Program-made: the position numbers and the translations under genes
From: an uncultured Gammaproteobacteria bacterium
Lineage (GTDB): Bacteria; Pseudomonadota; Gammaproteobacteria; JAADHQ01
Reading direction: 5' to 3'
Assembly: GCA_947258755.1 (NCBI GenBank)
Contig: CAMYJO010000012.1
Span: 2,743 to 63,950 of the forward strand
Length of the DNA stretch: 61,208 nucleotides
In this document: positions 11,011-60,477 of the stretch, in pieces
Numbering within the stretch: position 1 is the first letter of the stretch
How the letters are laid out: each line of letters opens with the position of its first letter
The notes under the pieces: generated by a model
Told to the model about the DNA's origin: nothing
What the model saw: only the letters and a program-made list of their open reading frames with translations
The model's database searches: none

Positions 11011-11032
11011 CATATGGACTTGAAGTGGAAGA

Positions 11033-11046
11033 TTGATATAGATCAG
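11033..11046 (+). promoter_or_regulatory. FNR/Anr-type box upstream of hemN
   Basis: TTGATATAGATCAG differs from the FNR consensus TTGAT-N4-ATCAA only in the last base. The centre is about 65 bases before the hemN ATG. If it acts as a class II activator site at -41.5, the start of transcription would fall near 11081, and a weak -10 candidate TAATCT sits at 11069-11074. Oxygen-independent hemN is a classic FNR/Anr target, so site and gene agree. Confidence 0.8.
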
Positions 11047-11104
11047 TACACGCTTGAGCTATAGTTATTAATCTGTAGCATCAGACAGATATTGGCGGTG
11101 TAAC

Positions 11105-12487
11105 ATGCAAGTAGAATTCAATCCGGACCTGATCAAACGTTATGACAAGGCGGGTCCCCGATACACATCCTATCCGACGGCAGTGCAATTTCATGAAGGC
11201 TTCTCGGAAGCAGACTATCGTGAGTATGCGCAGCAGAGTAATCGCGATAATGGCGCAGGGCCATTGTCACTGTATTTTCATCTGCCGTTCTGCGATACGG
11301 TCTGCTTCTATTGTGCCTGTAACAAGGTCGTTACCAAGGACCGTAGCAAGGCTGATACCTACCTGGATTATCTTTATCGCGAAATGGCTATGCAGGCCGA
11401 ATTATTTAATCCAGAGCGACCTGTCGATCAATTGCACTGGGGTGGCGGCACACCGACCTTTATCAGTCACGCACAAATGACAACCTTGATGCATAATACC
11501 CGTCGTCATTTTAATCTGCATGACGATGATAGCGGTGAGTACTCGATTGAAATCGACCCGCGCGAGGCACGTCCTGAAACCATTGCCTTGTTACGTGAGC
11601 TTGGTTTCAATCGCCTCAGTCTGGGTGTGCAGGACTTTGACCCGGCCGTGCAAAAGGCCGTCAATCGAATTCAGCCTGAACAACAAACCCTGGATACTAT
11701 CAATGCCGCCCGACAGGTCGGGTTTAAATCGATCAGTCTGGACCTGATCTATGGCCTGCCCTTACAAACTGTCGACAGCTTTAGCAAGACCCTGGAAAGG
11801 GTGATCGAGTTGGCGCCCGAACGCCTGTCGGTGTTCAATTATGCGCACATGCCGGAGATGTTCAAGCCGCAGCGGCGTATCCACGTCGAGCAATTACCAA
11901 CGGCTGCCGAGAAACTTGAGCTGCTGCATTACACCATCGAACGTCTGACAGCGGCGGGTTATGTCTATATCGGTATGGATCATTTTGCCCGTCCCGATGA
12001 TGAGCTCGCTATCGCCCAGACCGAAGGCAGTCTGTACCGAAACTTTCAGGGCTATTCGACCCATGCCGATTGTGACCTGGTGGCCATGGGGATCACTGGC
12101 CTGGGTCAAGTCGGTAATAGTTACAGTCAAAATGTGAAAACGCTCGATGACTATTATCAGCGCCTGGATGACGGTCATTTACCGGTGTATCGCGGCCTGG
12201 GCCTGAATGCGGATGACCGTCTGCGTCGACATGTCATTAATCGCTTGATGTGTGATTTTTCCCTGGACTGGGGCCAGCTCGATGCGCAATTCGGTATACA
12301 GGCGCAGACGTATTTTGAAAGTGAGTGGTCAGATTTGCAGACTATGCAGGCCGATGGCTTGCTCAGTTTAAGTGCTCAGCGTTTACAAGTCAGTTCCGCA
12401 GGCCGGCTGCTGATCCGTAATATCTGTATGGTGTTTGATAAGTATTTACGAGATAGTCAGGAACAGCGTTTTTCAAAAGTAATATAA
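11105..12487 (+). CDS. hemN: Oxygen-independent coproporphyrinogen III oxidase HemN
   Basis: Radical-SAM enzyme that decarboxylates coproporphyrinogen III to protoporphyrinogen IX without oxygen, for haem synthesis. The [4Fe-4S] motif is in FCDTVCFYCACNKV (about residues 61-74, CxxxCxxCxC, the HemN-specific form). The N-terminal YTSYPTA and LHWGGGTPTF blocks and the C-terminal HemN domain are present. The length of 460 residues fits true HemN rather than the shorter HemW. It is preceded by an FNR-like box, so anaerobic induction is likely. Confidence 0.97.
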   Translation: MQVEFNPDLIKRYDKAGPRYTSYPTAVQFHEGFSEADYREYAQQSNRDNGAGPLSLYFHLPFCDTVCFYCACNKVVTKDRSKADTYLDYLYREMAMQAELFNPERPVDQLHWGGGTPTFISHAQMTTLMHNTRRHFNLHDDDSGEYSIEIDPREARPETIALLRELGFNRLSLGVQDFDPAVQKAVNRIQPEQQTLDTINAARQVGFKSISLDLIYGLPLQTVDSFSKTLERVIELAPERLSVFNYAHMPEMFKPQRRIHVEQLPTAAEKLELLHYTIERLTAAGYVYIGMDHFARPDDELAIAQTEGSLYRNFQGYSTHADCDLVAMGITGLGQVGNSYSQNVKTLDDYYQRLDDGHLPVYRGLGLNADDRLRRHVINRLMCDFSLDWGQLDAQFGIQAQTYFESEWSDLQTMQADGLLSLSAQRLQVSSAGRLLIRNICMVFDKYLRDSQEQRFSKVI

Positions 12488-14911: not shown

Positions 14912-15994
14912 TTATTCTGGTGTCTCGATCTCATCGGTGCGGCTGAAGCTCTGCCAGAGTTCTGCACTCATGCCAGCAAAGGCCGCGTTGAAACGGTCGT
15001 CGCTATTATTTTCTCCGACCTTGCGAATCAGGATACGAGTTATCTGCGTGGGGTACTTGCGTGCCAGCTTGGCATAGACCTCAGGATCTTTTTCACCGGA
15101 ATCACCCACCAGAATAAATTGTCGTTGTGGGTAACGTTTCAGGATGGATTCAAGAATGTTCATTTTGTATTCGACCGGATCAGCAAACAGATTCAGAAAG
15201 CTGCTATCTTTCCAGCGAAAGTCTTTCATGTAAAACAAGCCACGCGGAAATCCGGCCTTGTCCATAAAGTCTTTGAGTTCCGGGTACAGTTGCCAGGGGC
15301 TGGCCGATACATAATGGAAAACGGTCGCTGGTGTTCGTTGCCATCGCCGATATATCGTCGCCATGCCGGGTGCCGCCTTGAATGGACGTAAAAAGGTATT
15401 CCTGATCAACTCTTTTTTATCACTGACATTGCTGATCTTGATGGTATCGTCGATATCGGAAATAATGCTCAGTCCTTTACGTGGGACCAACAGCAGGTCT
15501 CCCTGGAAAGATCGTTTGTCCTTTTTGGGTAATTGCGCATGAAATTGAATCGGATATTCGTTGTTTGCTGAGAGCAGGGACATGATCTGTGTTTCGGTGG
15601 TTTGCGCCTTAGTAGAAAAATGTCCGTTGGCTGTCGATTTTTTCATGGCATGGGTCTTGTTGCCCAGCTTGATTGTGATGCGTTTGCCGCGTTCATTATC
15701 GACCTTGAACCAGTGTGTTCTTTGTTGCAGCAGGTTTTTATGTTCAGTTGCGTTTTCGGTAGGGAGCGCCAATGCTTTGCGTAGCACGCTGTTGATCTCT
15801 CCCAGGGTTTCAGGTTCAAAGATCCAGCCATGGAAGTGCAGTGTCCATGTGTCCTTGTCGATAGCTTGGCTGGCTTCGGCTGGAAAAAAGATGACTTGTT
15901 CATCGTCTTTAATTACAGACGATGAAAACCAGTCCCATCCCGAGTAGGCCGAGGACGACATTAGCATCGCGACGAACGTTGTCAGTATCTTCAT
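14912..15994 (-). CDS. Exported App1-like phosphatase domain protein (DUF2183)
   Basis: A 360-residue protein with a signal peptide (MKILTTFVAMLMSSSAYSGW). Its C-terminal half carries the HAD-like motif SDIDDTIKISNV, HYVSASPWQLYPEL and FILVGDSGEKDPEVY, which match the App1/DUF2183 domain related to yeast phosphatidate phosphatase App1. The N-terminal half resembles the region usually paired with it in bacteria. I chose the second of two adjacent ATGs (15994), 6 bases from AAGGA; the longer frame to 16081 lacks a signal at its start. The substrate is unknown; lipid phosphates are a reasonable guess from the family. Confidence 0.8.
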   Translation of the reverse strand: MKILTTFVAMLMSSSAYSGWDWFSSSVIKDDEQVIFFPAEASQAIDKDTWTLHFHGWIFEPETLGEINSVLRKALALPTENATEHKNLLQQRTHWFKVDNERGKRITIKLGNKTHAMKKSTANGHFSTKAQTTETQIMSLLSANNEYPIQFHAQLPKKDKRSFQGDLLLVPRKGLSIISDIDDTIKISNVSDKKELIRNTFLRPFKAAPGMATIYRRWQRTPATVFHYVSASPWQLYPELKDFMDKAGFPRGLFYMKDFRWKDSSFLNLFADPVEYKMNILESILKRYPQRQFILVGDSGEKDPEVYAKLARKYPTQITRILIRKVGENNSDDRFNAAFAGMSAELWQSFSRTDEIETPE

Positions 15995-44941: not shown

Positions 44942-46339
44942 ATGTTAGCGATTTATAACAACCTGACCCGTAAAAAAGCGCCATTTGAGCCAATTAATCC
45001 TAAAAATGTAAGGTTATACGTTTGCGGCATGACAGTTTACGACCTATGCCATCTGGGGCATGCCAGGGTATTGGTGGTTTTTGATGTGGTCTACCGTTAT
45101 TTGTGCCATATCTATGGAAAGGATCATGTGAATTATGTGCGCAATATTACTGATATTGATGACAAGATCATTCAGCGCGCGAATGAAAACGGCGAGGCCT
45201 TTACTGAGTTAACTGAACGTTTCATTGAGGCCATGCATGAAGATGCCAAGGGTCTGAATATCCTGCCACCGACCATGGAACCGCGCGCAACCACGCACAT
45301 GACCGAGATCATAGCCATGATCCAGGCCCTGGTCGACAAGGGTTTTGCCTATGCGGCTGATAATGGTGATGTCTATTATGATGTCAGTCGTTTTCAGCAC
45401 TATGGCCAACTGTCCGGTAAAAAACTGGAAGACCTGCAGGCGGGCGCACGGGTGGCAGTGGACCAGGCCAAGGATGATCCGCTGGATTTCGTACTATGGA
45501 AATCGGCCAAGCCGGATGAGCCACACTGGGACTCTCCCTGGGGTAAGGGTCGGCCGGGTTGGCACATCGAATGTTCGGCGATGTCGACGCACTGTCTCGG
45601 TAATCATTTTGATATTCATGGCGGCGGCATGGATTTGCAATTCCCGCATCATGAAAACGAAATTGCACAATCAGAGGGAGCGACGGGCGAAAAATTCGTT
45701 AACGTCTGGATGCATAACGGTTTTGTGCGTATTGATGATGAAAAGATGTCAAAATCACTCGGTAATTTTTTTACCATCCGTGAAATACAGGCACGTTATC
45801 GCCCCGAGATCATCCGGTATTTTATATTAAACAGTCAGTACCGCAGTCCATTGAATTATTCCGATGCGCAGCTTGACAGTGCCTATGCAGCGCTGGAAGG
45901 GTTTTATACCGCATTGCGTGGACTCGAGCCGATGGACGCGGATGACTATGGTGATTATGGCAAAGAGTTTTTTCACGCTATGGATGATGACTTTAATACT
46001 GCCGGTGCCATCGCGGTATTGGCGGAATTGCGTAAGGACATCAACCAGGCGAAAACTGCCGACATCGAAAAAGCTAATCATCTGGCGGGTATTCTGAAGT
46101 CACTGGCTGATCTGTTGGGTATTCTTCAAGATGATGCAGAGCATTTTCTGAAACAGGGCGCCAAGCCCCAGGCAGAGAGTGCTCTCAGTGATGAAGCCAT
46201 CGATGCACTGATCGAACAACGCGATGCGGCACGTGCCAGTAAAAACTGGGCCGAATCCGATCGTATCCGAGACCTGTTCAAGCAAGAGGGCATTGTCGTT
46301 GAAGACGGCGCCGGCGGCAGCACCTGGCGTCGGCAATAA
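44942..46339 (+). CDS. cysS: Cysteinyl-tRNA synthetase
   Basis: Class I synthetase that charges tRNA-Cys. Zinc ligand Cys28 is in [11 protein letters not shown]; the HIGH motif is HLGHAR (about residues 37-42), [11 protein letters not shown] holds further zinc ligands, and KMSKS occurs at about 268. The length of 465 residues is normal. No T-box or tRNA-like leader is seen. It is divergent from the cyclophilin-lpxH pair, the conserved order. Confidence 0.98.
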
Positions 46340-46693: not shown

Positions 46694-47947
46694 ATGAATA
46701 GATCAGGTTTGGGTCAGATTGGATGGGCTGTGTTGGCAGCCTTGATGGTATCGGCATGTGGCGGAGGCGGTGGCTCCTCTCCATCATCGACGAGCTCCTT
46801 TGACGGCACGATTACCGGTTTTGGTAGTGTCTATGTCAATGGTGTGAAATTCGAGACTGATGGCTCAAGCTTCTCGATCGATGGTGAGCATGGTAGTGAG
46901 GACGACCTGAAAGTCGGTATGCGAGTCAGGGTCGAAGGTAGTGTCAACGGCGAGCACGGTAGCGCCAGTTCAATCAGTTATACCGATGAGCTTGAGGGGC
47001 TGGTGATTAGTAACAGTATCGCTAGCGGTGCAGACGTCGGTAACATGAATATTATGGGACAAACCGTGAGTGTTACTGCGGAGACTGTATTTGAAAGCAA
47101 GGTGATGACGGTAACGATGCCCGACCAGATCGCGGCAGGTATGATTGTCGAGGTCAGTGGTTATTCTTCAGGGATGGGTGAGATCCAGGCAACTCGTATC
47201 GAGGTTAAGGCCAGTGATTTGACGACTTATCTCGCATTGCATCCAAACGGTATCGAGGTCAAAGGCATCGTTGCCAATCATGATGAGCAAAATATGAAAT
47301 TCGACCTGGGTAGTATGACCATCGATTACTCGTCTGCAATACTGGATGATATGCCGAATGGCAATTTTGATATGCTGTATGTAGAGGTTAAAAGTACGGC
47401 AGGTATCGACAGTAATACTTCGGAGCTGATCGCCAGCAAGGTTGAGCTCGAGAATCATGGTGATATGGGTCATGATGGACATGATGATGACGAGATGGAA
47501 ATCAAGGGTATGATCACATCGGCCATCGAAGGTGACAGTTTTGCAGTTAATGGACAAATGATTACAGTCAATGACAAGACCGAATTTGATGACATCAGCA
47601 AAGCAGAGCTGCTTGTTGGCGTCATGGTTGAAGTCGAAGGCTATTATCGGGATGGTGAATTTATAGCAGAAGAAGTGGAAGCCAAGGAGGAATCCAGTGA
47701 TGAGATTGAAGGTATCATTGCTGCTATTGAGAGCGGAGAAATTAACACCGGAACAGTGACCTTGAACAACGGTATGGTTTTCTCGATTACCAATGAAACG
47801 ATCATGGAAGACAGTCGCGACGACGGCTTTATTGCTGATCAAAAATTCAACCTGCAAGCACTAATGGAAGGTGACTATGTCGAGATCCATTACTACGATG
47901 ACAACGGCACCTTGGTCGCCACCAAGTTGGAGCGTGACGATAACTGA
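46694..47947 (+). CDS. DUF5666 repeat lipoprotein
   Basis: A 417-residue exported protein with a lipoprotein signal (MNRSGLGQIGWAVLAALMVS, then AC) followed by a GGGGGSS linker. The mature part consists of repeated 60-80 residue beta domains of the DUF5666 type: ITGFGSVYVNGVKFETDG and LKVGMRVRVEGSV, then later copies with GIVANHDEQNMKFDLGSM, IKGMITSAIEGDSFAVNGQ and IEGIIAAIESGEINTG. It is acidic, with a His/Asp patch HGDMGHDGHDDDE that could bind metal. AGGAG lies 7 bases before the chosen ATG. The function of the family is unknown; surface or periplasmic binding is likely. Confidence 0.82.
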   Translation: MNRSGLGQIGWAVLAALMVSACGGGGGSSPSSTSSFDGTITGFGSVYVNGVKFETDGSSFSIDGEHGSEDDLKVGMRVRVEGSVNGEHGSASSISYTDELEGLVISNSIASGADVGNMNIMGQTVSVTAETVFESKVMTVTMPDQIAAGMIVEVSGYSSGMGEIQATRIEVKASDLTTYLALHPNGIEVKGIVANHDEQNMKFDLGSMTIDYSSAILDDMPNGNFDMLYVEVKSTAGIDSNTSELIASKVELENHGDMGHDGHDDDEMEIKGMITSAIEGDSFAVNGQMITVNDKTEFDDISKAELLVGVMVEVEGYYRDGEFIAEEVEAKEESSDEIEGIIAAIESGEINTGTVTLNNGMVFSITNETIMEDSRDDGFIADQKFNLQALMEGDYVEIHYYDDNGTLVATKLERDDN

Positions 47948-47999: not shown

Positions 48000-48168
48000 G
48001 TGGCCATTCAATATCAGCTTTGCTGAAATGGAATAAAAGATATGCATAAAATGGAATAAAAACCTGTCCTGAAGCGTTTACTATACAAGGGGGCATATTC
48101 ATGAAGGTATCTTAGTTATCTATCGTTGCTGGATATACGGTATACTCGATCGCAATTAAAAATAAATA

Positions 48169-49155
48169 ATGGGTCATCACATGTCAGAGAACGATAATAC
48201 TCAGGCCTCTTTCCGCCAGCTACGCAAACACCTTGAAAGTATTATTGTCGGTCAGGCCGTGATGCTGGACCGGTTGATGATTGCCCTGCTGACCGGCGGG
48301 CATGTATTGCTTGAAGGTCCACCTGGGCTGGCCAAGACTACCGCGGTCAATGCTCTCGCCAGTGGCGTGCATGCGAGTTCGCAACGGATCCAGTTCACCC
48401 CGGACCTGATGCCGGGCGATCTGACCGGGACCGAAATCTACGATGCCAAGTCCGGTGAATTTCGTTTCGTTGCCGGACCGGTATTCCATGAAATTGTACT
48501 CGCTGATGAAATCAATCGAGCACCGCCCAAGGTGCAATCGGCCTTGCTCGAAGCCATGGCAGAGCACCAGGTGACCGTCAATGGCATCACACGGCCATTG
48601 CCGGACCTGTTTATTGTCATGGCAACCCAAAATCCCCTGGAACAATCCGGTACCTATCCGTTACCCGAGGCCCAGCTGGATCGTTTCCTGTTACATATTG
48701 AGCTTGACTACCCTGAGCCGGAAGAAGAACTGGAAATATTGCGTCGCGACCGCCAACGTCACTTTGGCGAAGACGCGGCAACGATTGAATCGCCTATTCA
48801 ACCAGACACTGTATTGCAGGCAAGGCACCAGGTGGCCGCTATCCACATCGATGCCAAAATCGAGGAATATATTGTCAGGCTGGTCGGTGCGACACGGGAG
48901 CTGGGTCGTTATATTCCGACATGGGATGACTATATCGAAGTAGGGGCATCGCCGCGCGCCTCCCTGGCCCTGGCACGTGCTGCCAGTGCCCTGGCTTATT
49001 TGCATGAACGTGAATTCGTGACCCCGGAAGATGTGATCGAAGTGCTGGCCGATGTATTTCGTCACCGTATCATTACGTCGTTTGCCGCCCAGGCCCAAGG
49101 TGTGGGTAAGAACGAAATCCTGCAGGCCATTATCGAGCAGGTGCCAATGCCCTGA
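48169..49155 (+). CDS. MoxR-family AAA+ ATPase
   Basis: Chaperone-like ATPase that acts with von Willebrand A proteins. Walker A GGHVLLEGPPGLAKTT (about residues 43-58), Walker B VLADEINRAPPKVQSALLEA and sensor 1 MATQNPLEQSGTYPLPEAQL are intact. The C-terminal lid has the usual ASPRASLALARAASALA. ATG 48181 (MSEND) is an alternative start. It heads a six-gene Bat operon in which neighbouring genes overlap by 1-16 bases. Confidence 0.94.
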   Translation: MGHHMSENDNTQASFRQLRKHLESIIVGQAVMLDRLMIALLTGGHVLLEGPPGLAKTTAVNALASGVHASSQRIQFTPDLMPGDLTGTEIYDAKSGEFRFVAGPVFHEIVLADEINRAPPKVQSALLEAMAEHQVTVNGITRPLPDLFIVMATQNPLEQSGTYPLPEAQLDRFLLHIELDYPEPEEELEILRRDRQRHFGEDAATIESPIQPDTVLQARHQVAAIHIDAKIEEYIVRLVGATRELGRYIPTWDDYIEVGASPRASLALARAASALAYLHEREFVTPEDVIEVLADVFRHRIITSFAAQAQGVGKNEILQAIIEQVPMP

Positions 49156-50105
49156 TGAAGTCGAGAACGAGCAGATCGTCCCGGCGTAAGCTGGATCCAG
49201 TAACACAGCCGCTAATGACGCGCGACCAGGTCCAGCAGTATATGAACAAGGGTCTGTCCCATGTTGTTAAAGTTGAAAATGGGCGCCTGAGCAAGCAGGT
49301 GCGTAGTGGCTCTCATCAATCTGCCTATCGTGGCGGTGGTTTCGATTATGATGACAGTCGTGAATACCAGGCAGGTGATGAACTCAGAAATCTAAACTGG
49401 CGCCTGCTGGCACGGACGGCGCAATTATATACCAAGGTTTTCCTGGAAGAACGCGAAGCCAGTGTGACCATCGTCGTTGATCGCCGCGCCGGCATGCGTT
49501 TTGGTACACGTAAACACCTGAAGGTGACACGCGCTGTACAGCTCGCCTGCTACCTGGCGGGACGCTACCTCAGGCAGTCCTGTTCGGTAGGCATCACGCT
49601 GTTGGAAAAAGAGGGTATGCAATTTCAGGCGCAGCGTTCGCAAACGCGGGTGCGTGATGGTCTGCTGGCAGCAGCAGCTGCCTGTCCTCCTGTGACAGAG
49701 CCTGAAGAAAGCCTCACACTGTCGTTGTTGTTGTCACAGTTGCAACATAGCTGCAATGCCGGTAACAGGATTGTCCTGATCAGTGACTTTCATGATCTTG
49801 ATGAGAATGACAGTGTGCTGTTGACGCAATTGTCCAGGCAACACCCAATGCAGGCATTGCAGGTGCTGGATCCGATAGAGCTGGCATTGCCGGCGGCCGG
49901 TATATGGCAAATAGAAGATTATGGCCACACGTCTGCCATCAAGATAAATGCCAACGATGGTCAGTTAAAACAGCAGTATGCCGAAGCGATGAAGCTTAAT
50001 CTGCAGCGGCTTGACGCCATTTTTTCTGACTGTCGTGTGCCCCGTCAGCGTGTGTTTACCGATCAGAATTTCGATGTTGTGCTGAGGCAATGCGGTTATG
50101 CCTGA
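49155..50105 (+). CDS. DUF58 domain protein (Bat operon)
   Basis: Partner of MoxR ATPases, 316 residues, cytoplasmic. The domain hallmark is REYQAGDELRNLNWRLLART followed by VFLEEREASVTIVVDRRAGM, a degenerate vWA-like fold. The start overlaps the moxR stop by one base (TGATG). Such genes occur in nearly all moxR-bat operons, but the exact role is not known. Confidence 0.92.
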   Translation: MKSRTSRSSRRKLDPVTQPLMTRDQVQQYMNKGLSHVVKVENGRLSKQVRSGSHQSAYRGGGFDYDDSREYQAGDELRNLNWRLLARTAQLYTKVFLEEREASVTIVVDRRAGMRFGTRKHLKVTRAVQLACYLAGRYLRQSCSVGITLLEKEGMQFQAQRSQTRVRDGLLAAAAACPPVTEPEESLTLSLLLSQLQHSCNAGNRIVLISDFHDLDENDSVLLTQLSRQHPMQALQVLDPIELALPAAGIWQIEDYGHTSAIKINANDGQLKQQYAEAMKLNLQRLDAIFSDCRVPRQRVFTDQNFDVVLRQCGYA

Positions 50106-50526
50106 GACACATGGCAAGCTCGAAGGTCTGCGCGATATTATACCGCCGGATATGCCTGTACTGGAGTACCAGCTACCCTGGATGTTGATATTGATGATCC
50201 TGGCCGTGTTGATACTGGTTTTTATAGGGCTCAAGCATTATCGTCAAGATCCGTTGCGTAGCGCACGTAGGCAATTTCGGCAGTTACTGAAAAAGAGTGT
50301 AGGCCAGGACCCGGTTGCTACCGGTGAGGCTATCACCTCGATACTACGTACGTATTGCAATACGCATAATCTGGCAAACGTTGACCTGCACGGGATTGAA
50401 CGGCGGGATTGGCTCAAGCTGCTGGATGATTGCAATCACTTGCGGTTCTCGGCACGGGATGACAAGTCCGGGTCTATCCAACGGGCGCTGGAGAAAACAC
50501 AACAGTTGCTATGGCGGACGGCATGA
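50098..50526 (+). CDS. DUF4381 membrane protein (Bat operon)
   Basis: A 142-residue protein with one membrane span at about 22-42 (LPWMLILMILAVLILVFIGL), preceded by a short periplasmic part (IIPPDMPVLEYQ) and followed by a cytoplasmic helical domain. LRGIxxPxxxxxxP-like starts and this position between DUF58 and the first vWA gene are typical of DUF4381. It overlaps both neighbours (8 and 16 bases). Confidence 0.82.
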   Translation: MPETHGKLEGLRDIIPPDMPVLEYQLPWMLILMILAVLILVFIGLKHYRQDPLRSARRQFRQLLKKSVGQDPVATGEAITSILRTYCNTHNLANVDLHGIERRDWLKLLDDCNHLRFSARDDKSGSIQRALEKTQQLLWRTA

Positions 50527-51575
50527 GCACAATGCTGCAAGACTGGCAGTTTCATTTTGCTCAATGGCCATGGTTGCTGCTGCCGTTGGCGTTGTTAGTA
50601 GCTTATCTGCTGCTGGGTTTATTCCTTAAAAACAGATTGCGTTGGCAATTTCCCGGTGCGTTGATCAGTCTTGGCCAATCCTATGTTCATCCGCGTCATG
50701 CATTATTAAGAGAGATATCGCTGCAAAAGGTGCGTCGTACAGGTTTATTGACAAACTTACATTCAGTCCTGGTATGGGTATTTATTGCATTATGTTGTGT
50801 CGCGCTGGCGCGACCCGAGTGGGTACGCCAGGAAATGCAGGAGCCGCGTGAATACAGGGACATTGTGTTTGTTGTTGATACATCCATCAGTATGATGCAG
50901 AGAGACTATCTGTTACAAGGTGAGCGCGTCGATAGAATGACCTTGCTCAAGGGCGTGTTGTCCAGATTTATCGGTCAATTACGCGGTGATAATGTATCTA
51001 TCGTGGTGTATGCCGACTCCGTGTATACACTGGTGCCATTGACGCCGGACCACGAGCTGGCAAAGACCATGTTGGCGCGTATACATACCGGTCTAGCAGG
51101 CCGCACATCGTCGTTGGGTAATGCATTGGCACAGGCCGTTTATGAAGCGGAGCAGTCCAGTAATCGACAGCGTGTACTGGTTCTGTTTACCGATGCCACC
51201 CGGCAGACAGGAAAAATCGACACCGATGTCGCGACAGAAATGGCACGTCAGGCAGGGTTGCGTATTTATACGGTGGCGATCGGTGCACGTAGCCATGAGG
51301 CAGAGGAGAAACGCCTGTCGGGTTTAATCTACGAACCGGCGGACATCAGTAAAATGAAGGCCATTGCCGAGCATACTGGTGGCAAGTTTTATTGGGCCGG
51401 TGATACCGACACGCTGGGTCAAGCTATCAAGGATATTGAACGAGCTGAACAGCGCCAGGAAAAACCGCAAATACTTTATTTACGCCAGCCGCTTTATCAA
51501 TGGCCGTTGCTGTTGGCTATTATGGTATTCAGCTTTTTGCAGTTCAGCTATTTGCGACAGCAGGCACAGGTCTGA
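50511..51575 (+). CDS. von Willebrand factor A protein, BatA-like
   Basis: Inner-membrane protein of 354 residues with N-terminal spans (about 18-37 and 82-100), a vWA domain exposed to the periplasm or cytoplasm, and a C-terminal span (about 330-348). The MIDAS metal site is VVDTSISM (about residue 122), with LFTDATRQTGKI as the later motif. BatA proteins work with MoxR in aerotolerance and envelope functions in Bacteroides and other bacteria; the ligand is unknown. Confidence 0.9.
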   Translation: MADGMSTMLQDWQFHFAQWPWLLLPLALLVAYLLLGLFLKNRLRWQFPGALISLGQSYVHPRHALLREISLQKVRRTGLLTNLHSVLVWVFIALCCVALARPEWVRQEMQEPREYRDIVFVVDTSISMMQRDYLLQGERVDRMTLLKGVLSRFIGQLRGDNVSIVVYADSVYTLVPLTPDHELAKTMLARIHTGLAGRTSSLGNALAQAVYEAEQSSNRQRVLVLFTDATRQTGKIDTDVATEMARQAGLRIYTVAIGARSHEAEEKRLSGLIYEPADISKMKAIAEHTGGKFYWAGDTDTLGQAIKDIERAEQRQEKPQILYLRQPLYQWPLLLAIMVFSFLQFSYLRQQAQV

Positions 51576-53404
51576 TGACGGTTACCTGGGACATGCTGCA
51601 ATTAAGAGAGCCGCTGTGGTTGTTGTTGGCGTTGCAACCAGTGCTGCTGTCTTTGTATGTTAGTCTGCAGTATCGGCGTCAGAACAACTTGTATGCTGAT
51701 GCGATGTTGTTGCCCTGGGTGATTACGCGGACACAGCAAGGCTCAAAGGGTATGTTGTGGCTGCGATTTTTATTGTTGCAGTTATGCTGGATTCTGATTG
51801 CAGTGGCCATGGCGGGCCCCCGTTATCCGGATCCGCCTCGAGATGCAGATCGCGCGGGGGCTGCCGATGTGATGCTACTGATCGACGTGTCTCGCTCGAT
51901 GACAGCGACGGATGTCACGCCGGATCGTTTGCAACGGGTAAAAACCGAAGTGTTTCGTTTCCTGTCGGAAAACCGCTCGGACCGTATTGGTATTATACTG
52001 TTTGCCGGTCATGCTCACTTACTAAGTCCATTGACCTGGGACCATAAAGCCCTGCGTTTTTATGCCAAAGGTATCGAGGCCGGCCTATTGCCGACCGCAG
52101 GCAGTCATCTGGCCGAAGCCATAACATTGGCCAATCAACAGTTGGCTGGCAGCAATGCACCGGCAATATTACTGTTAACAGACGGTGAGACGCATACACC
52201 CATCGACACCACTCCTGACATCATACAAACGCCGTTATATATTATGGGCGTTGGTAGTCATGCCGGTGCCACTATCGCGGCGTCGGAAGGGGGGTGGTTG
52301 ATGCACGAAAACAAACCAGTGCGCACGCGCTTGCAGGATACCCAGTTGCAAGCACTGGCCAGTTCGAGTGGAGGAGCCTACAGTGAATTGAATAATGAAC
52401 CCGGCGGCTTGAACGCACTCTATCATCGCTCGCTAGTTGCCAATGCTTTCAAGCAGGCGACAGCATCAGCAGACCAGTCCTGGATCGAGCTCTATCACTG
52501 GCTGCTGTTACCTGCATTACTGCTTCTGCTGTTGATGTCATTGCCGCTGCCATTGTTATCGGCACGACTTGCAAACTTAGGTGTGGTTTGTCTATTGGTT
52601 TCAGCCGGTCTATTGCAGCCTATGGATGCGGGCGCGCAAGGTATGAGTATTGAAAGCGAAAGCGCAGCCTATGCAGCCTACCAGACACAGGATTATCGCA
52701 AGGCAATGGATATCTATGCCGTACATAGCGGCTATGTTGCCAGAATGGGCGAAGGTAGCAGCGCCTATCAGCTGAAGGATCACGCACGCGCGATTACCCA
52801 GTTTACCCGAGCCTTTCTTGTCGCTGACGATGACCGCTATAGAGCCAAAGCACTTTATAATCTCGCCAATAGTTATTTCCAGGTCGAGAATTATACATCG
52901 GCCATCGCTGTTTACACAGACGTGTTGCAATACGACCAGCAACATCAGGAGGCGCAGGCCAACCTGGACTTCGTCAAATCGGTGCTGGCTTCGAAATCAC
53001 AGGATGCCTTTGCCAGTAGCGCGCGGGCGCAACGCGCCGGTAAAGGTCCGCGCAGTTTGAAGACAGATGATAATACACGCGGGGGTGGCGATTTTAGTCT
53101 TGATGACGAAGAAGTGGCGTTGACGCCGTCGGCGCGTGCTGATCGTCAACTACAGGATACTCACCTGCTTGAAAGAATTGCCAGTGGTAAAGAACGCGTG
53201 CAGGTAGCGGGCGAGGCAGCTCATGTGCAGGTGCCTGCAGGTGTCGCTGTCGTTAACGCCAGTCAATTGTTGCAGGCGCGCCGGCTGATCACCGAGGGTA
53301 AACGCGATCAGTCGCGTTTATGGAAGTCATTATTCGAGGAAGAGGAAGGTTTCCCTGCGCCGTTACAGCAACCCGTCAGTGAAGCCGGTGTGCCGCCATG
53401 GTAA
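51575..53404 (+). CDS. vWA-TPR protein, BatB/BatC-like fusion
   Basis: A 609-residue protein whose ATG overlaps the BatA-like stop (TGATG). Two N-terminal spans are followed by a vWA domain with MIDAS LLIDVSRSMTATDVTPDRLQ (about residues 101-120) and LLTDGETHTP. Two further spans lie at about 310-350. A C-terminal TPR region then carries QDYRKAMDIYAVHSGYVARM and RAKALYNLANSYFQVENY. It thus joins BatB and BatC in one chain, as in other proteobacteria. The last part is low-complexity and charged. Confidence 0.9.
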   Translation: MTVTWDMLQLREPLWLLLALQPVLLSLYVSLQYRRQNNLYADAMLLPWVITRTQQGSKGMLWLRFLLLQLCWILIAVAMAGPRYPDPPRDADRAGAADVMLLIDVSRSMTATDVTPDRLQRVKTEVFRFLSENRSDRIGIILFAGHAHLLSPLTWDHKALRFYAKGIEAGLLPTAGSHLAEAITLANQQLAGSNAPAILLLTDGETHTPIDTTPDIIQTPLYIMGVGSHAGATIAASEGGWLMHENKPVRTRLQDTQLQALASSSGGAYSELNNEPGGLNALYHRSLVANAFKQATASADQSWIELYHWLLLPALLLLLLMSLPLPLLSARLANLGVVCLLVSAGLLQPMDAGAQGMSIESESAAYAAYQTQDYRKAMDIYAVHSGYVARMGEGSSAYQLKDHARAITQFTRAFLVADDDRYRAKALYNLANSYFQVENYTSAIAVYTDVLQYDQQHQEAQANLDFVKSVLASKSQDAFASSARAQRAGKGPRSLKTDDNTRGGGDFSLDDEEVALTPSARADRQLQDTHLLERIASGKERVQVAGEAAHVQVPAGVAVVNASQLLQARRLITEGKRDQSRLWKSLFEEEEGFPAPLQQPVSEAGVPPW

Positions 53405-54672
53405 TTATTATCAGGACCCTTTGCGCTTTGATGATGGCAGTCTTGTTACCCTTTATTGCCTACGCTGCTACTGTCGATCAGCAAGACGTTGTAGACAGTA
53501 TACGTGTTATAGACGTTGACAAGGCAGGGCAGTTGCAATTCAGTGGCCCGATCGCCATACGCTATGATCTGTCTGCCGATTCTGTGTATACACAGCAACT
53601 GATGGCGATTCAGTTCCAGCTCGATAGTAATGATGCCTATATCAGTCTGCGTATCGATATTGAACCTGAGGCCGACGAAAGTTATCGTTTATTGGGCATC
53701 CGCAAGACGGTATTGCCGGAAACGTCAAGACACCGTTATCGTTATCTGTTCAAGGTGCTGTATAAAACTGCTCAAAGCGGCGCGCTGGCATTAACCATAC
53801 CCGACCTGATTTACAGTGAAGGCGGCAGGGACAACTACCGTCTGCGTTTTGCCAGTCAACGATTGCAGGTCAAGCCATTGCCGGAATACTTGCCGCCTTA
53901 TATTACAATGTCTGCTGTCGATCTGGAGTCGTCGATATCGACACCCGCGACATGGTATCGACCGCTTGACACGGGTAGGGTTTATTACTGGAACATTGTG
54001 ATCACGGGCATTGGTCTGGATGCGCAGTCGATGCCTGATATCCGACAACAAATTAATAATAAGCCAGGCCTGCGATTTTTACCGCCGATACTGTCGGCAG
54101 CAACAGAGGTCAGTCCCGATGACTCGGTGCAAAAAATACGCTACAGCATCCCGTTTATTGCCGACAGCAGCGGTTTGTTGCAGTTGCCCGATATCCGCTT
54201 GCACTATTTCGATACCGGCAAGCAACGACTGGTATCAAAACATTATGTGCAGGAGCGCCTGACAGTCCTATCTGCAACTATCTTTTGGTTGCTGATACTT
54301 GTTATCGCTGCGATCGTTGTGATGTTGTGGCGGCGTCTGAGGCAGCCTGTGTCCAGGGCTTGCAGGAATATATATGATCTCTATCATGCGCGTCGGCAAC
54401 TACAGCACGCACAAACCGGGCAGCAAATGCGGGCGGCCATGAACAGGCTGGGCGAGTCATTGGGCTGGCCGGCAAATCCTACCCTGAGTGAATGGTTGCA
54501 ATACTGGCGTCAGGATATTCACCTCGATGGGTCTATCGCTGATCATGTGCATGCGCTCAGTGCACAACTGTACGGGCCTGCAAGTAAGTCAGATGATGTC
54601 GGCGAGTTGCGTGCGTTACTACTATCCACACTTCCTAAGCAGTTCTGGCGCTGCATTAAGGCCTCCTTATAA
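53398..54672 (+). CDS. BatD-like periplasmic protein
   Basis: A 424-residue protein with a signal peptide (MVIIIRTLCALMMAVLLPFI, ending AYA), a large beta-rich periplasmic domain, one membrane span near the C-terminal third (about 300-318), and a cytoplasmic helical tail. IxVxVxDVDK-like starts and position after the vWA-TPR gene match BatD. It overlaps the previous gene by 7 bases and ends the operon. Confidence 0.82.
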   Translation: MVIIIRTLCALMMAVLLPFIAYAATVDQQDVVDSIRVIDVDKAGQLQFSGPIAIRYDLSADSVYTQQLMAIQFQLDSNDAYISLRIDIEPEADESYRLLGIRKTVLPETSRHRYRYLFKVLYKTAQSGALALTIPDLIYSEGGRDNYRLRFASQRLQVKPLPEYLPPYITMSAVDLESSISTPATWYRPLDTGRVYYWNIVITGIGLDAQSMPDIRQQINNKPGLRFLPPILSAATEVSPDDSVQKIRYSIPFIADSSGLLQLPDIRLHYFDTGKQRLVSKHYVQERLTVLSATIFWLLILVIAAIVVMLWRRLRQPVSRACRNIYDLYHARRQLQHAQTGQQMRAAMNRLGESLGWPANPTLSEWLQYWRQDIHLDGSIADHVHALSAQLYGPASKSDDVGELRALLLSTLPKQFWRCIKASL

Positions 54673-54804: not shown

Positions 54805-55500
54805 ATGTTGCAAAAGTCTACTGCGCTAATCATTCTATCCATGTTGCTGACGATCAACGCACCCGTATGGGCTGCTGATGGTGCTGGACGAATGCAGGTC
54901 GATAATGATCACGTGAGTTCATGGAATACCTTCGCCGATCAGATATTGGCGCTGCATAAGAAACAGATTGAAGGCAGAGCGATTAAGGAAACTGCAGTCA
55001 CTGGTGGCTATCGTGATAATCCGGATTATTATCGTCAAGTCACCTACACTGATCAGAAAACAGGTAAAGTCCTGAGTATTGTTCAATGGCAAACAGATGA
55101 TCCCGAAGTCGTCCACAGTATTGAGGCCTTTGTTTATGATGCCAAGGGCAGGGTTATCCGGGACTACAGCGCTTCTTATCTGCCTGGTTCACGTAATGCG
55201 CCCGTTCAAACTCTTATTAACCTTCATCATTATAACGGCAGTCTGCATGCCTTCCGCCAATTTGATGCCAGTAAGGATATTATCTATGAATACTGCCAGG
55301 GCGAGTTCAATGGCCAACAACATGAGTTACGCTTGTTTGAAGATGATCTGGCGGCTGTTGAATACGATTCGCGTCAGGTATTGAAATCTCCATTATATAA
55401 GGCGTGCTTCAAGGGCTTGCGAACATATATCGGCAGGGGTATTCTTCCCATTAATAATGGAGGGAATGACCGAACTACCTCCACATTGAGCCGATCCTGA
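54805..55500 (+). CDS. Exported protein with an unrecognised domain (paralogue 1)
   Basis: 231 residues with a clear signal peptide (MLQKSTALIILSMLLTINAP, cleaved about VWA/AD) and AGGAG 7 bases before the ATG. The mature protein is one domain of about 180 residues: VSSWNTFADQILALHKKQIE, GGYRDNPDYYRQVTYTD, IEAFVYDAKGRVIRDYSASY, LPGSRNAPVQTLINLHHYNG, FRQFDASKDIIYEYCQGEF and LYKACFKGLRTYIG. I do not recognise a family. The same domain occurs in the gene at 56911, where both cysteines (YEYC and KACF here) are kept, so a disulfide is likely. It follows the Bat operon by 132 bases. Confidence 0.8.
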   Translation: MLQKSTALIILSMLLTINAPVWAADGAGRMQVDNDHVSSWNTFADQILALHKKQIEGRAIKETAVTGGYRDNPDYYRQVTYTDQKTGKVLSIVQWQTDDPEVVHSIEAFVYDAKGRVIRDYSASYLPGSRNAPVQTLINLHHYNGSLHAFRQFDASKDIIYEYCQGEFNGQQHELRLFEDDLAAVEYDSRQVLKSPLYKACFKGLRTYIGRGILPINNGGNDRTTSTLSRS

Positions 55501-55833
55501 GGAAGTGGTACGTGGTGAACTATTTTTCACCATTGTATAAGTCCACACCATCGGCTGCGAAAAGCGGTCCAAGATTCTATCAATTATTGATAAGCGGACA
55601 TGCTATTCTATCTGGCTGTGCCAAGAAACGTAAATTTGCTAAAAAGGAATTGAAAAAAGCGACTTGAACAATTTAGCTAGCGACCAGAATTCCAAATTAG
55701 GAATATTCGGTTTAGCCGTAGAACAGCCGGGTAAACTGGTGGCTAAAAGCTAGCGTATATTAAAACGATATTTATACGAAATAAATAAGAATTACAGTGG
55801 GTGTTGGGTATTATTATTGATACTATATTTACT
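55501..55833. other. Intergenic region with no supported gene
   Basis: 333 bases. A possible frame around 55590-55667 (HAILSGCAKKRKFAKKELKK) looks like the start of a lipoprotein, but it has no proper start codon or ribosome site. From about 55740 the sequence is strongly AT-rich and may hold the rhodanese promoter. I see no repeat shared with other gaps. Confidence 0.4.
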
Positions 55834-56508
55834 ATGATAAAACACATAAAATTCTACAAGGCGATTATATTTATCAGTATGTTGGTGCTTGGATCTGCTA
55901 TGAGTGCAGACGAAAGCGTAGACAATCCGGGTGCTGTGAACATAACCGCTGATATCGCCTATGTAGATGTCAAACATAAGGGTAAAATTGTTCGAATTGA
56001 GCGCGAACAGGACAATGATGCGCTCATTGATCCAGACTATGCGCAGACCTCACGTCCGTGCCCTCCCTACTGTATACATACAATGCAGTTAGCGACTGGA
56101 GTCGAGACCATTGGCGAGCTTGAATTATTGCAATACCTGGTCAGCTACACCAAGGGTGAAGAAGTAATGGTGATTGATTCGCGCGAGCCGGAATGGTTGC
56201 TAAAGGGTATGATACCGGGTGCTGTCAATATCCCCTGGAATAAACTCTATAACAAGACCACTAGCAATAGGGAGATTGCAGAATTATTGGAATTCAGGTT
56301 TGGTGCTGTAAAAACAGGAGTTCTGTGGAATTTTGAAGATGCAAAAACACTGGTTTTTTATTGCAATGGACCATGGTGCGGGCAATCGCCGACAAATATT
56401 CGTGCCTTACTGGCCTTGGGTTACCCTGCCCATTTACTAAAGTGGTATCGTGGCGGCATGCAGAGCTGGAAACAATTTGGCCTGACAACAATAACTCCTC
56501 AACAGTAA
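55834..56508 (+). CDS. Exported rhodanese-domain protein
   Basis: About 224 residues. A signal peptide (MIKHIKFYKAIIFISMLVLG, ending MSA) is followed by VNITADIAYVDVKHKGKIVR and the motif RPCPPYCIHTMQLATGVETI, then a rhodanese domain: VMVIDSREPEWLLKGMIPGA, VNIPWNKLY and the active-site loop FYCNGPWCGQSPTNIRALL. The catalytic cysteine and nearby second cysteine are intact, so sulfur or redox transfer in the periplasm is plausible. The start is uncertain: GTG 55801 is also in frame and neither has a strong ribosome site. It lies between two paralogous exported proteins. Confidence 0.85.
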   Translation: MIKHIKFYKAIIFISMLVLGSAMSADESVDNPGAVNITADIAYVDVKHKGKIVRIEREQDNDALIDPDYAQTSRPCPPYCIHTMQLATGVETIGELELLQYLVSYTKGEEVMVIDSREPEWLLKGMIPGAVNIPWNKLYNKTTSNREIAELLEFRFGAVKTGVLWNFEDAKTLVFYCNGPWCGQSPTNIRALLALGYPAHLLKWYRGGMQSWKQFGLTTITPQQ

Positions 56509-56910
56509 TAAAATAGACAATAATTTCATAGGCACTGATACTGGTAAACGGGCTTCCACTATCAGTTTAGGCTTATTCTAAGCATCATGATGATGTTGTT
56601 ATCGCTATAAGCGTCTGTTTGTCAGTTAGATTTACCTTCTATGCATTGTTGATTGACTTTACGGAAAATCCCTATTATTCATGAGTCTACGCGTAATATA
56701 AATCTAAAAGTACACCCTCGAGTAATCACTGTTCAGTGAACACTCTCGAGGAACTGGAGGATGATCCGTGGTCAGGAATCTGTAAAATTGATATATTAGT
56801 GATTGTTCGGTTCATTATTACAGAAAAGATATATATTTCAGTACCTCGGACCTCTGAAAGCGTCGGGGCTGATTGAATATGAGGCAAAATGATTCCGGAA
56901 GGGAGTTGCT
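56509..56910. promoter_or_regulatory. Gap with a palindrome upstream of the TPR paralogue
   Basis: 402 bases without a gene. CCTCGAG (56716-56722) pairs with CTCGAGG (56745-56751), and inside it CACT GTTC AGTG (56727-56738) forms a second small stem, giving a two-tier hairpin about 160 bases before the next start. It lacks a T run, so an operator or leader structure is as likely as a terminator. The rest is AT-rich. Confidence 0.45.
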
Positions 56911-58347
56911 ATGAACATGCGCCGGTCTAATAAACCACAGATAATTATTATGAAAACATCAATACTTTTGCTGAACACTCTATTTCTGTCTGTATTGACT
57001 TTTACAGCAATGGCAGTCTTTGCAGAAGATAAGGAGAACAAACTTGAAGTCGATCATGATCAGGTACATGGCTGGAACCAGTTTGCTGATCGCATATATG
57101 AATTACACAAATGGCGCATCAATAGGGTCAAGACGATAAAAAAAGTAAGTTCTGGCGGCTACGATCAAATGGAAAATTTCTACCAGCAAGAGAATTTTTA
57201 TCATGTAGAGAATGGACAATTGCTAAGCCGCATAAAATGGGAGGCGGATAATCTTGATAAGATTCATGAAATTGAACTATTTATCTATGATGCAAATGGA
57301 AAGTTGATTGTCGATTATCTTGCAGCATATTTGCCTGTCACACGTAATGCGCCGATTCAGACATTGATAAACTTCCATCATTATGAACAGTACCTGCATG
57401 GATTTCGACAATTTGATGCGGATGGGGAGCGTATATATGAGCAATGCAAGGGTGTGTATTTTGGACGAGATTTGTTCCTGTATCTAGATGATGATGCCAT
57501 ACCATATGGCGAACCCGATTTCGAGGATCCGCTGGATAATGAAGCCTATCATTCTTGTTTTGGGTTTCTGGTTACGGAAGTAGGAGAACTGATCAATCCA
57601 CTAAATGCGAAAAAATATCTGACTGATTCAGCTGAGATAATTGAAACGGCCATCGTCGTGCCCAGTGAGTTGCTTGTCCTTAACAAGGCGGTAAACGAAA
57701 ATCTCGATAGTGAAGATGCCTTTACCAAGCGCGGCATCTATTATTTCAATAAGCAGGAATTTCCCAAGGCGATAGATGATTTAACTAGGGCGCTAAAATT
57801 GAAGCCTGGTTATGACGATGCACTGTATTGGCGTGGTTTGGCCTATGGTAGAAATAAACAGATCGCTTTGGGGATTGCGGATTTAAGCAGTTATCTTGTG
57901 AAAAACCCGAGTGATTCTCTCGCCTGGACTAAACGTGGCGTCAGATACATTTGGCAGGGTGATCTGATTAAAGCAAAAAAAGATTTATTAAAGGCAGTAG
58001 AAATTGATGCAACCAATTCAGAGGCGCATGATGATCTTGGCGTTATATACGCACAAGAAAAGCAGTATCAAAATGCGCTCAAACATTTTGCGCTTTCCTT
58101 GAAACATGATCCAAGTTATCAAAAAGCGTGGCATAATACGGCGATGGTCCACTTTTTACATGGGGATCATGATCGAGCCATGAAATTTGTCAATAAATCA
58201 TTAAATCTTCAGCATACAAAGGATTCCATGTTGTTGAAGAGTCTGATACTGGAAGCAACGGGATTTCGTGATGAAGCGAACAACACCAGGGCGGCCGCAC
58301 AGGCACTGCCTGACAGCAATTGGAATGAGTCATTCAGTATTCAGTAA
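56911..58347 (+). CDS. Exported protein: unrecognised domain fused to TPRs (paralogue 2)
   Basis: 478 residues. The ATG has AAGGGAG 6 bases upstream; ATG 56950 would give a more usual signal peptide (MKTSILLLNTLFLSVLTFTA). The mature N-terminal half is a paralogue of the 54805 product: VHGWNQFADRIYELHKWRIN, IELFIYDANGKLIVDYLAAY, LPVTRNAPIQTLINFHHYEQ, FRQFDADGERIYEQCKG and AYHSCFGF. From about residue 260 there are five or so TPR-like units, for example AFTKRGIYYFNKQEFPKAID and AHDDLGVIYAQEKQYQNALK. The domain is unknown; the TPRs suggest it binds a partner protein. Confidence 0.82.
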   Translation: MNMRRSNKPQIIIMKTSILLLNTLFLSVLTFTAMAVFAEDKENKLEVDHDQVHGWNQFADRIYELHKWRINRVKTIKKVSSGGYDQMENFYQQENFYHVENGQLLSRIKWEADNLDKIHEIELFIYDANGKLIVDYLAAYLPVTRNAPIQTLINFHHYEQYLHGFRQFDADGERIYEQCKGVYFGRDLFLYLDDDAIPYGEPDFEDPLDNEAYHSCFGFLVTEVGELINPLNAKKYLTDSAEIIETAIVVPSELLVLNKAVNENLDSEDAFTKRGIYYFNKQEFPKAIDDLTRALKLKPGYDDALYWRGLAYGRNKQIALGIADLSSYLVKNPSDSLAWTKRGVRYIWQGDLIKAKKDLLKAVEIDATNSEAHDDLGVIYAQEKQYQNALKHFALSLKHDPSYQKAWHNTAMVHFLHGDHDRAMKFVNKSLNLQHTKDSMLLKSLILEATGFRDEANNTRAAAQALPDSNWNESFSIQ

Positions 58348-58549
58348 TGCATATTCATGATTGGCTATGATCCAGGTAGATCAGGTCGGTCCGGACATCT
58401 ATGCTAGTTGGCTTCGGGTCTAGTTAATAGCTGCCATATTTTTCAGGTTATAAAGAAAAATATGTTTAAGGCTTGTGTAAGCAGTATTCATCTTTCAAGC
58501 ACGGTATTATAACTATTATCAATAAAAGGCAGTATTTCTGGATTATCCG

Positions 58550-59041
58550 ATGTTTAAGAAAAAAACATATAATGCATTAAAATATGCGGCAGGTATTACA
58601 GCTTTGACCTGTTCACTAAATCCACATTCCATTCATGCCGATGATGAATTATTTATGATGAATGAAGTAGCCCGGGAATACTGGCTGCATGGTAAGGTAG
58701 GAGAGGGTTTGTGTGGTGCGCGCATGAAGCCCGATATTGAGGAACTGATTGCAGCAGCTGAAGAAGGTAACGCGCGCGCAGCATATCATCTTGGACAACT
58801 TTTCGAGGATGGAACATGGGGTATTGAAAAAAATAGTGAAAAGGCGGTCAAGTGGTATGAGGTTGCTGCACGTGGGAAAATATATAATGCTATAATTAAC
58901 CTGGCTACCATATATGAATTGGGTAGGGGGGCACCACAGGATTCTTCAAAAGCGAACTATTGGTTTATGGAAGCGCAAAAAATCATGCATGATGAATACA
59001 TTGCAGAAAAAATAAAGCGATTTCAAGATGAGTTAAAATAA
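58550..59041 (+). CDS. Exported Sel1-repeat protein
   Basis: 163 residues with a signal peptide (ending SIHA/DD). The mature part has Sel1-like repeats: GNARAAYHLGQLFEDGTWGI and KNSEKAVKWYEVAARGKIYN, then AIINLATIYELGRGAPQDSS. Sel1 repeats are helical protein-binding scaffolds. A single cysteine (GLCGAR) precedes them. It follows the TPR paralogue by 202 bases and may be part of the same exported group, though no shared transcript can be shown. Confidence 0.82.
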   Translation: MFKKKTYNALKYAAGITALTCSLNPHSIHADDELFMMNEVAREYWLHGKVGEGLCGARMKPDIEELIAAAEEGNARAAYHLGQLFEDGTWGIEKNSEKAVKWYEVAARGKIYNAIINLATIYELGRGAPQDSSKANYWFMEAQKIMHDEYIAEKIKRFQDELK

Positions 59042-59613: not shown

Positions 59614-60477
59614 TCAGCGTTGGATTATGCGGCGTGCGCAGGCGGCCTCAAGTGTGTTTTGCATTAAGGTTGCAACGGTCATTGGTCCAACACCGCCGGG
59701 TACCGGGGTAATCCAGGCCGCCCGTTCAAAGGCGCTATCAAATTCCACGTCTCCAACCAGTTTACCTTCCGCGGTACGATTGATGCCGATATCGATAACG
59801 GTCGCCCCTGGTTTTATCCATTCGCCCTTGACCAGCCCGGGTTTACCGACGGCAACGATGAGGATATCCGCTCGTCCGACCCAGCCGGCAAGGTCACGTG
59901 TGAATCGATGACAAGTGGTTACGGTGCAGCCGGCCAATAATAATTCCAGGCCCATGGGTCGGCCTACATGGTTGGATGCGCCGACAATAACGGCCTCTCG
60001 ACCGTAGAATTCCTCACCGATACTTTGTAATAACTTTATCACCCCGAACGGCGTGCATGAGCGTAGCGTTGGCAGGCGTACCGCGAGACGGCCGATGTTA
60101 TATGGGTGAAAACCGTCGACGTCCTTATCGGGTCGGATGCGTTCAATAACTGTTTCGCTATTGATTTGATCTGGTAAGGGGAATTGGACCAATATGCCGT
60201 CGATATCTTCATCTTCATTGAGCTGGTCAATCAGTGCCAGTAGATCCTGTTCAGTTGTCTCCGCCGGTAAATCATAGGCCCTGGAATGTATGCCAACTTC
60301 CTCACAGGCATTACGTTTGTTCCTGACGTAGACCTCCGAGGCCGGGTCTGCGCCGACCAGGACAACTGCCAGGCCTGGTGTGAAGCCATGCTGCTGATCC
60401 ATTGTTGCGATAACAGATGCGATTTCTGCTCGCTGTTCGGCGGCAATTTTTTTGCCATCTATAATGTTTGCACTCAT
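59614..60477 (-). CDS. folD: Bifunctional methylenetetrahydrofolate dehydrogenase/cyclohydrolase
   Basis: Interconverts methylene-, methenyl- and formyl-tetrahydrofolate. [17 protein letters not shown] holds the catalytic lysine region; [35 protein letters not shown] and the NADP-binding [20 protein letters not shown] follow, with [20 protein letters not shown] at the end. The usual SxxVGxP reads SNHVGRP. The length of 287 residues is normal. It is on the minus strand, divergent from tRNA-Pro. Confidence 0.97.

Follow-up and report, generated by a model that had tools for sequence, protein, structure and literature searches.

An exported domain family and its TPR partner as a probable module of an ECF sigma factor response in Dsr-type sulfur-oxidising Gammaproteobacteria

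The interval between cysS and folD in an uncultured gammaproteobacterium (lineage JAADHQ01) carries two genes, here termed A and B, whose products look exported and share an uncharacterised domain that in B is fused to tetratricopeptide repeats (TPRs). The DNA analysed, hereafter the window, is a stretch of 61,208 nt (positions 2,743 to 63,950 of contig CAMYJO010000012.1). We propose, with a probability of roughly 0.6, that the domain and its TPR partner form an exported module of an extracytoplasmic function (ECF) sigma factor response in Dsr-type sulfur oxidisers, which A would have joined here by way of a MoxR-Bat operon. By sequence comparison, the A/B domain is a conserved, unannotated and apparently exported family with two ancient branches. 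The features concerned are as follows.

44942–46339, plus strand: cysS, the upstream border of the site, which adjoins A in most genomes.
48053–48080, plus strand: candidate ECF promoter GGAATAA-N15-CGTTTA, upstream of the MoxR-Bat-A run, from a weight-matrix score.
48169–54672, plus strand: MoxR/Bat-type genes (MoxR AAA ATPase, DUF58-like, two VWA proteins, BatD-like) in overlapping or abutting open reading frames; names other than MoxR and VWA were given by inspection.
54805–55500, plus strand: gene A, exported, uncharacterised domain (helix and nine-strand meander), from the open reading frame, BLASTP and a model.
55837–56508, plus strand: exported rhodanese (PF00581, 9.4e-13), a local addition.
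56950–58347, plus strand: gene B, A-type domain fused to a TPR solenoid, from Pfam, BLASTP and a model; without an upstream ECF site.
58550–59041, plus strand: exported Sel1-repeat protein (PF08238, 1.4e-14).
59614–60477, minus strand: folD, the convergent downstream border of the site, which adjoins A in most genomes.

All four open reading frames from A to the Sel1 gene that the initial annotation had grouped together are present, with probable true start codons at 55837 for the rhodanese and at 56950 for B (listed as 56911–58347), and each begins with a signal-peptide-like N-terminus as judged by eye, in keeping with the claim that all are exported. The relatedness of A and B was borne out by BLASTP (39% identity over ~215–221 residues including the signal region, E 9e-56); the common region is real but longer than the ~180 residues first estimated, covering ~190 residues past the signal and including two cysteines (C164 and C201) that are invariant in the family and probably form a disulfide. 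Near-invariant motifs are GGY, FYxE, RNAPxQTL and FRQFDA. That the domain is unrecognised also holds, as no above-threshold match was found in Pfam, NCBIfam, PHROG or PDB sequence families, most members of a 46-sequence domain set lacked a Pfam match at E 1e-3, and a search for viral or plasmid copies and against PHROG families returned no match. LIX1, DUF6443 and PatF were rejected as identities of the domain, their sequence matches being below any useful threshold. Structure prediction for both paralogues, which had been suggested at the outset, gave the same domain in each: the core of the A domain in the AlphaFold model (pLDDT ~97) comprises one helix, nine antiparallel strands and short C-terminal helices, and in B an A-type domain is followed by a long helical TPR solenoid, consistent with the Pfam match of its C-terminal part (TPR_2, 2.3e-24, 83.9 bits against a cut-off of 27). 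Searches of PDB structures with the domain reached at best Z 7.4 and a Foldseek E of 3e-3, to weakly similar LolA/RseB-like and BLIP-like folds, and assignment to a known fold was rejected as no match was clear. In having a TPR solenoid in an exported protein B resembles NlpI-, MamA- and PilW-like proteins, but these matches lie far under the family cut-offs and the N-terminal domain of B is unlike any of them.

In whole-genome searches 29 of the 369 genomes of the class carried the domain, and carriers in a scan of named genomes were gammaproteobacterial metagenome-assembled genomes (Acidiferrobacterales, Ectothiorhodospiraceae, Chromatiales and others), along with a few labelled alphaproteobacterial. 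A tree of 70 domains sets a cysS–folD group (25 rows, including window A) apart from a mostly TPR-fused group holding window B, each with moderate support (SH-aLRT = 80); because of this separation A and B are, on the sequences, ancient out-paralogues and not a local duplication, and a recent tandem duplication is ruled out. In the A group, 24 of 25 members (window A included) lie between cysS and folD, on the cysS strand and with a median gap to cysS of ~70 nt. Such a constant position might mean that A acts with these neighbours, e.g. in cysteine or one-carbon metabolism, which we consider highly improbable, as A looks exported whereas CysS and FolD are cytoplasmic, the Bat operon parts A from cysS in this genus (by 8.5 kb in the window), and a wider block with PpiB-like and LpxH-like genes is conserved whole, suggesting simple vertical inheritance. 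Orthologues of B are fused to, or lie beside, one particular TPR protein, and are located elsewhere in nearly all genomes. In 25 loci the TPR half is fused to the domain, and in nine others a separate nearby gene encodes it, in either order, which indicates that the domain and the TPR protein work together. Searches for it as a stand-alone protein were positive in 7 of 18 domain carriers, one of 16 anti-sigma-only genomes and none of 16 others. In two Acidiferrobacteraceae genomes (L106:11426–11941 and L111:11335–11871) a gene for an exported DUF411 protein with a glutaredoxin-like stretch lies convergent to B.

The surroundings of B-type genes point to a regulatory system. Pairs of ECF sigma and anti-sigma factor genes lie near them in five lineages, against ~0.1 expected; in L080 the sigma factor, anti-sigma factor and B form a single same-strand run, and B comes after a DsrE-like gene in L091 and L092. 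The neighbouring sigma factor matches PF04542 and PF08281 (sigma70 regions 2 and 4) above cut-off, and the anti-sigma factor joins an RseA-like or zf-HC2-like N-terminus (weak) to a C-terminal half that is related to exported DsrE-like proteins (BLAST E 1e-9 to 1e-14) and has an invariant cysteine. Exported neighbour proteins belong to the DsrE family (PF02635, 37.2 bits in L092 and 40.9 bits in L103 against a cut-off of 22.7), and the window genome’s exported DsrE-like protein scores 14.6 bits, below that cut-off. Full-length relatives of the anti-sigma factor occur in ~65 of the 369 genomes; as a rule a gene for an exported DsrE-like protein is nearby, and in many cases one for a porin as well. 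We found no DsrE-linked ECF system and no DsrE-ended anti-sigma factor in the open-access literature searched, which is not proof of absence.

Two such loci were observed in the window genome. One, on contig C6 (L182, ~96.3–100.4 kb), holds an ECF sigma factor, an anti-sigma factor with a DsrE-like half, a divergent exported DsrE-like gene, a Porin_O_P-type porin, a PEGA/SHOCT lipoprotein-like gene and two divergent GGAATAA...CGTCT sites between the genes. A second sigma/anti-sigma (DsrE-like) pair is on contig C12 (L183, ~93.0–94.3 kb), 30 kb past the window, followed by an exported ~420-residue protein; a clear upstream copy of the motif was not seen there.

A predicted promoter signal independent of the domain links these genes. 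From 12 sigma/anti-sigma-type intergenic regions without A or B we learnt the motif GGAATAA-N15-CGTCTA, often present on both strands and in its general form GGAATAA-N15-CGTC/TTA, which resembles the ECF26 consensus (consensus comparison only). With the threshold set at 1% of the null, sites were detected at 14 of 31 B-type genes versus 7 of 519 other neighbour genes; of these seven controls with a site, two are separately encoded TPR partners (L099 and L085), and the two top scores belong to MoxR, in the window and in its congener G002. Copies of the stand-alone TPR gene have a site in four of eight cases.

It is through the MoxR site that A may be connected to this response. Scoring 22.9 bits, this site is the best in the 61 kb (in shuffled windows, sites of at least 20 bits number 0.07 on average), and it has a counterpart upstream of MoxR in G002. 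It carries CGTT and was detected only by the weight matrix; when the window was searched with the exact pattern for CGTC-type sites, none appeared. The second-best ECF-like site (15882–15909, 18.4 bits) lies within, or antisense to, a coding open reading frame and is probably due to chance. A begins 132 nt past the end of the Bat genes, and no terminator-like site was found in this interval, which makes co-transcription of A with the Bat operon plausible. The observation in the initial annotation that A comes right after a MoxR/Bat operon has thereby gained relevance, given the ECF site predicted upstream of MoxR-Bat-A. Gene content and order before A are as in other MoxR-Bat operons, and the MoxR-Bat gene order is the same in congeners (L066 and L067); what differs from known MoxR-Bat operons is the presence of A at the end and the predicted control by an ECF sigma factor and DsrE-type anti-sigma factor. 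The strict motif occurs four times in the window genome. Two copies lie between the sigma and DsrE-porin genes on contig C6, one at either side of the gap that separates them; the third is at MoxR, and the fourth, on contig C32, is upstream of the gene for an exported TPR protein that stands alone and is a homologue of the TPR part of B. In congener G003, whose genome is 79% complete, both the anti-sigma factor and the site are missing, the latter at the MoxR gene as well as at the stand-alone TPR gene.

Carriers of the domain are mostly genomes with dsrA, which was found in 24 of 29 carriers versus 95 of 340 other genomes (p 7e-9) or, counted by family, in 14 of 15 carrier families versus 45 of 165; when only genomes with dsrA are considered, domain and anti-sigma factor are still associated at p 0.01. 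The window genome has a dsrA match of 615.7 bits (cut-off 392.85), and its host is on this match a predicted Dsr-type sulfur oxidiser. The sulfur connection that had been suggested in the initial annotation thus receives independent support from dsrA, the DsrE-like neighbours and the predicted ECF regulon. It is conceivable that the domain instead serves the upkeep or assembly of the envelope in general and is not directly connected with sulfur; its distribution would then reflect phylogeny only, and the ECF system would be a generic response to envelope stress. Partners such as TPR proteins and MoxR-Bat typically go with assembly or chaperone functions, the fold is weakly like that of generic periplasmic beta-meander proteins, and dsrA was not detected in five carriers. 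We nevertheless judge this explanation unlikely, as both the end of the anti-sigma factor and the exported protein that is most often co-regulated are DsrE-like, the association with dsrA persists by family, and the promoter is like that of ECF26 factors, of which RpoE1 and RpoE4 of Sinorhizobium meliloti respond to sulfite (PMC6180224, PMC3511301).

Under the ECF response that we favour, the module would be located in the envelope of Dsr-type sulfur-oxidising Gammaproteobacteria, where the A/B domain would work with one particular TPR protein, whether fused to it (as in B) or separately encoded. The ECF sigma factor would be held by the RseA-like anti-sigma factor until a periplasmic sulfur or thiol signal acts on its periplasmic, DsrE-like end with the conserved cysteine; once released, the sigma factor would bind GGAATAA-N15-CGTC/TTA and switch on the exported DsrE protein, the porin, the Bat proteins, A and the TPR partner. 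The predicted targets are thus many genes of the B type, several separately encoded TPR partners and, within this genus, the MoxR-Bat operon whose last gene is A. Once made, A and its TPR partner may bind sulfur carriers or partner proteins in the periplasm and keep hold of them. What can be read from the genomes is the family with its two groups of orthologues, the fused and split forms, the neighbourhoods, the promoter motif and the co-occurrence with dsrA; the biochemical role of the module we infer.

Several observations weigh against this proposal. Control of the regulon rests on predicted promoters, and as a reversed control pattern also gave four matches in the window genome, the argument rests on where the sites are placed. 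About half of the B-type genes have no detectable site, window B among them, and the 14 positive genes fall in about nine lineages, the counts being uncorrected for relatedness. Only 2 of 23 cysS–folD A genes have a site, so that control of A is at best genus-specific, exerted via a 6.5 kb operon. The anti-sigma C-terminus (window genome copy) scores 22.0 bits with PF02635, below the 22.7 cut-off, and that of L092 gives no match to PF02635; the end is for this reason termed DsrE-like only. Full-length anti-sigma factors were found in only 6 of 11 B-type genomes of the class sample, and the co-occurrence with dsrA is partly confounded by phylogeny.

The proposed system shares features with several known ones. 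Like ECF26 RpoE1/RpoE4 of S. meliloti (PMC3511301, PMC6180224), it pairs an ECF sigma with an anti-sigma factor and has a consensus of the type GGAATA (−35) and GT (−10), there in a response to sulfite-generating compounds; the likeness lies in the promoter consensus, and RpoE1/RpoE4 differ in controlling a sulfite dehydrogenase operon, with no DsrE-like anti-sigma factor or A-domain/TPR module reported. Control of the RseA/RseB type similarly uses a membrane anti-sigma factor, with the weak N-terminal likeness given above, but the periplasmic end is DsrE-like here and the likeness of the A domain to RseB/LolA folds is at background level. The exported neighbours and the anti-sigma end have a domain related to DsrE/TusD with a conserved cysteine, and are exported or membrane-bound, whereas DsrE is cytoplasmic in the DsrEFH complex. 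It is possible, though we advance it only tentatively, that this is a new envelope stress pathway, in which a cysteine-bearing DsrE-type anti-sigma factor senses periplasmic sulfur species and the ECF sigma factor turns on exported DsrE, porin, MoxR-Bat and an A-domain/TPR module by which envelope proteins in contact with reactive sulfur are protected or serviced. The independent promoter signal would give the family a regulatory home and indicate a type of sensor, the anti-sigma factor with a DsrE-like end; with a defined sigma factor, four promoters and a few genes, the sensing and survival of periplasmic reactive sulfur in sulfur oxidisers would become testable.

The initial annotation had read A, the rhodanese, B and the Sel1 gene as one co-encoded periplasmic system, possibly handling sulfur. 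The genes do share a strand and an interval, all look exported, and the rhodanese (48.9 bits against a cut-off of 22.2, with a cysteine-containing loop FYCNGPWCG by inspection and putative sulfurtransferase activity) and Sel1 (54.4 bits against 30.7) identities hold. Elsewhere a family member has an exported rhodanese as its immediate neighbour in L064/L065 and L089/L101, making about three lineages with the window, and in a single other genome (L075) a related Sel1 gene lies beside B, again within the cysS–folD interval. Congeners G001–G003 retain A, but neither a second domain copy nor a rhodanese relative was found in them, and their closest Sel1 matches are only generic; the rhodanese family occurs in 90 of 369 genomes, most of which have neither A nor B, and its adjacency is only weakly above the background of ~17 rhodanese domains per genome (p ~0.01), so the rhodanese was rejected as a conserved partner. 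The four genes are spaced ~200 to 440 nt apart, unlike a packed operon, and they share no ECF site: the weight-matrix scan found none above threshold before B, the rhodanese or Sel1, nor directly before A, and rhodanese, B and Sel1 are thus predicted to lie outside the proposed ECF control here. In G002 (L066, ~10780–11550) an unrelated open reading frame, TylF-type methyltransferase-like by eye, lies between A and folD, so that this stretch varies within the genus. It is best read as a variable site that gained rhodanese, B and Sel1, and as such additions the four genes would not be one operon, a reading ruled out by the congener comparison, the gaps and the poor recurrence. That they form a single sulfur-handling system, B being elsewhere in nearly all genomes, is accordingly improbable.

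Two further neighbours were noted. In L064 (7723–8631) an exported two-domain rhodanese lies directly 3′ of a family member, on the same strand and 11 nt away, with a matching locus in L065. Between cysS and MoxR the window encodes a DUF5666 protein (46694–47947), a 48% identical relative of which (L079:11505–12827) adjoins a B-type gene in the Ectothiorhodospiraceae genome that also holds L075, with the order cysS-A-B-Sel1-folD.

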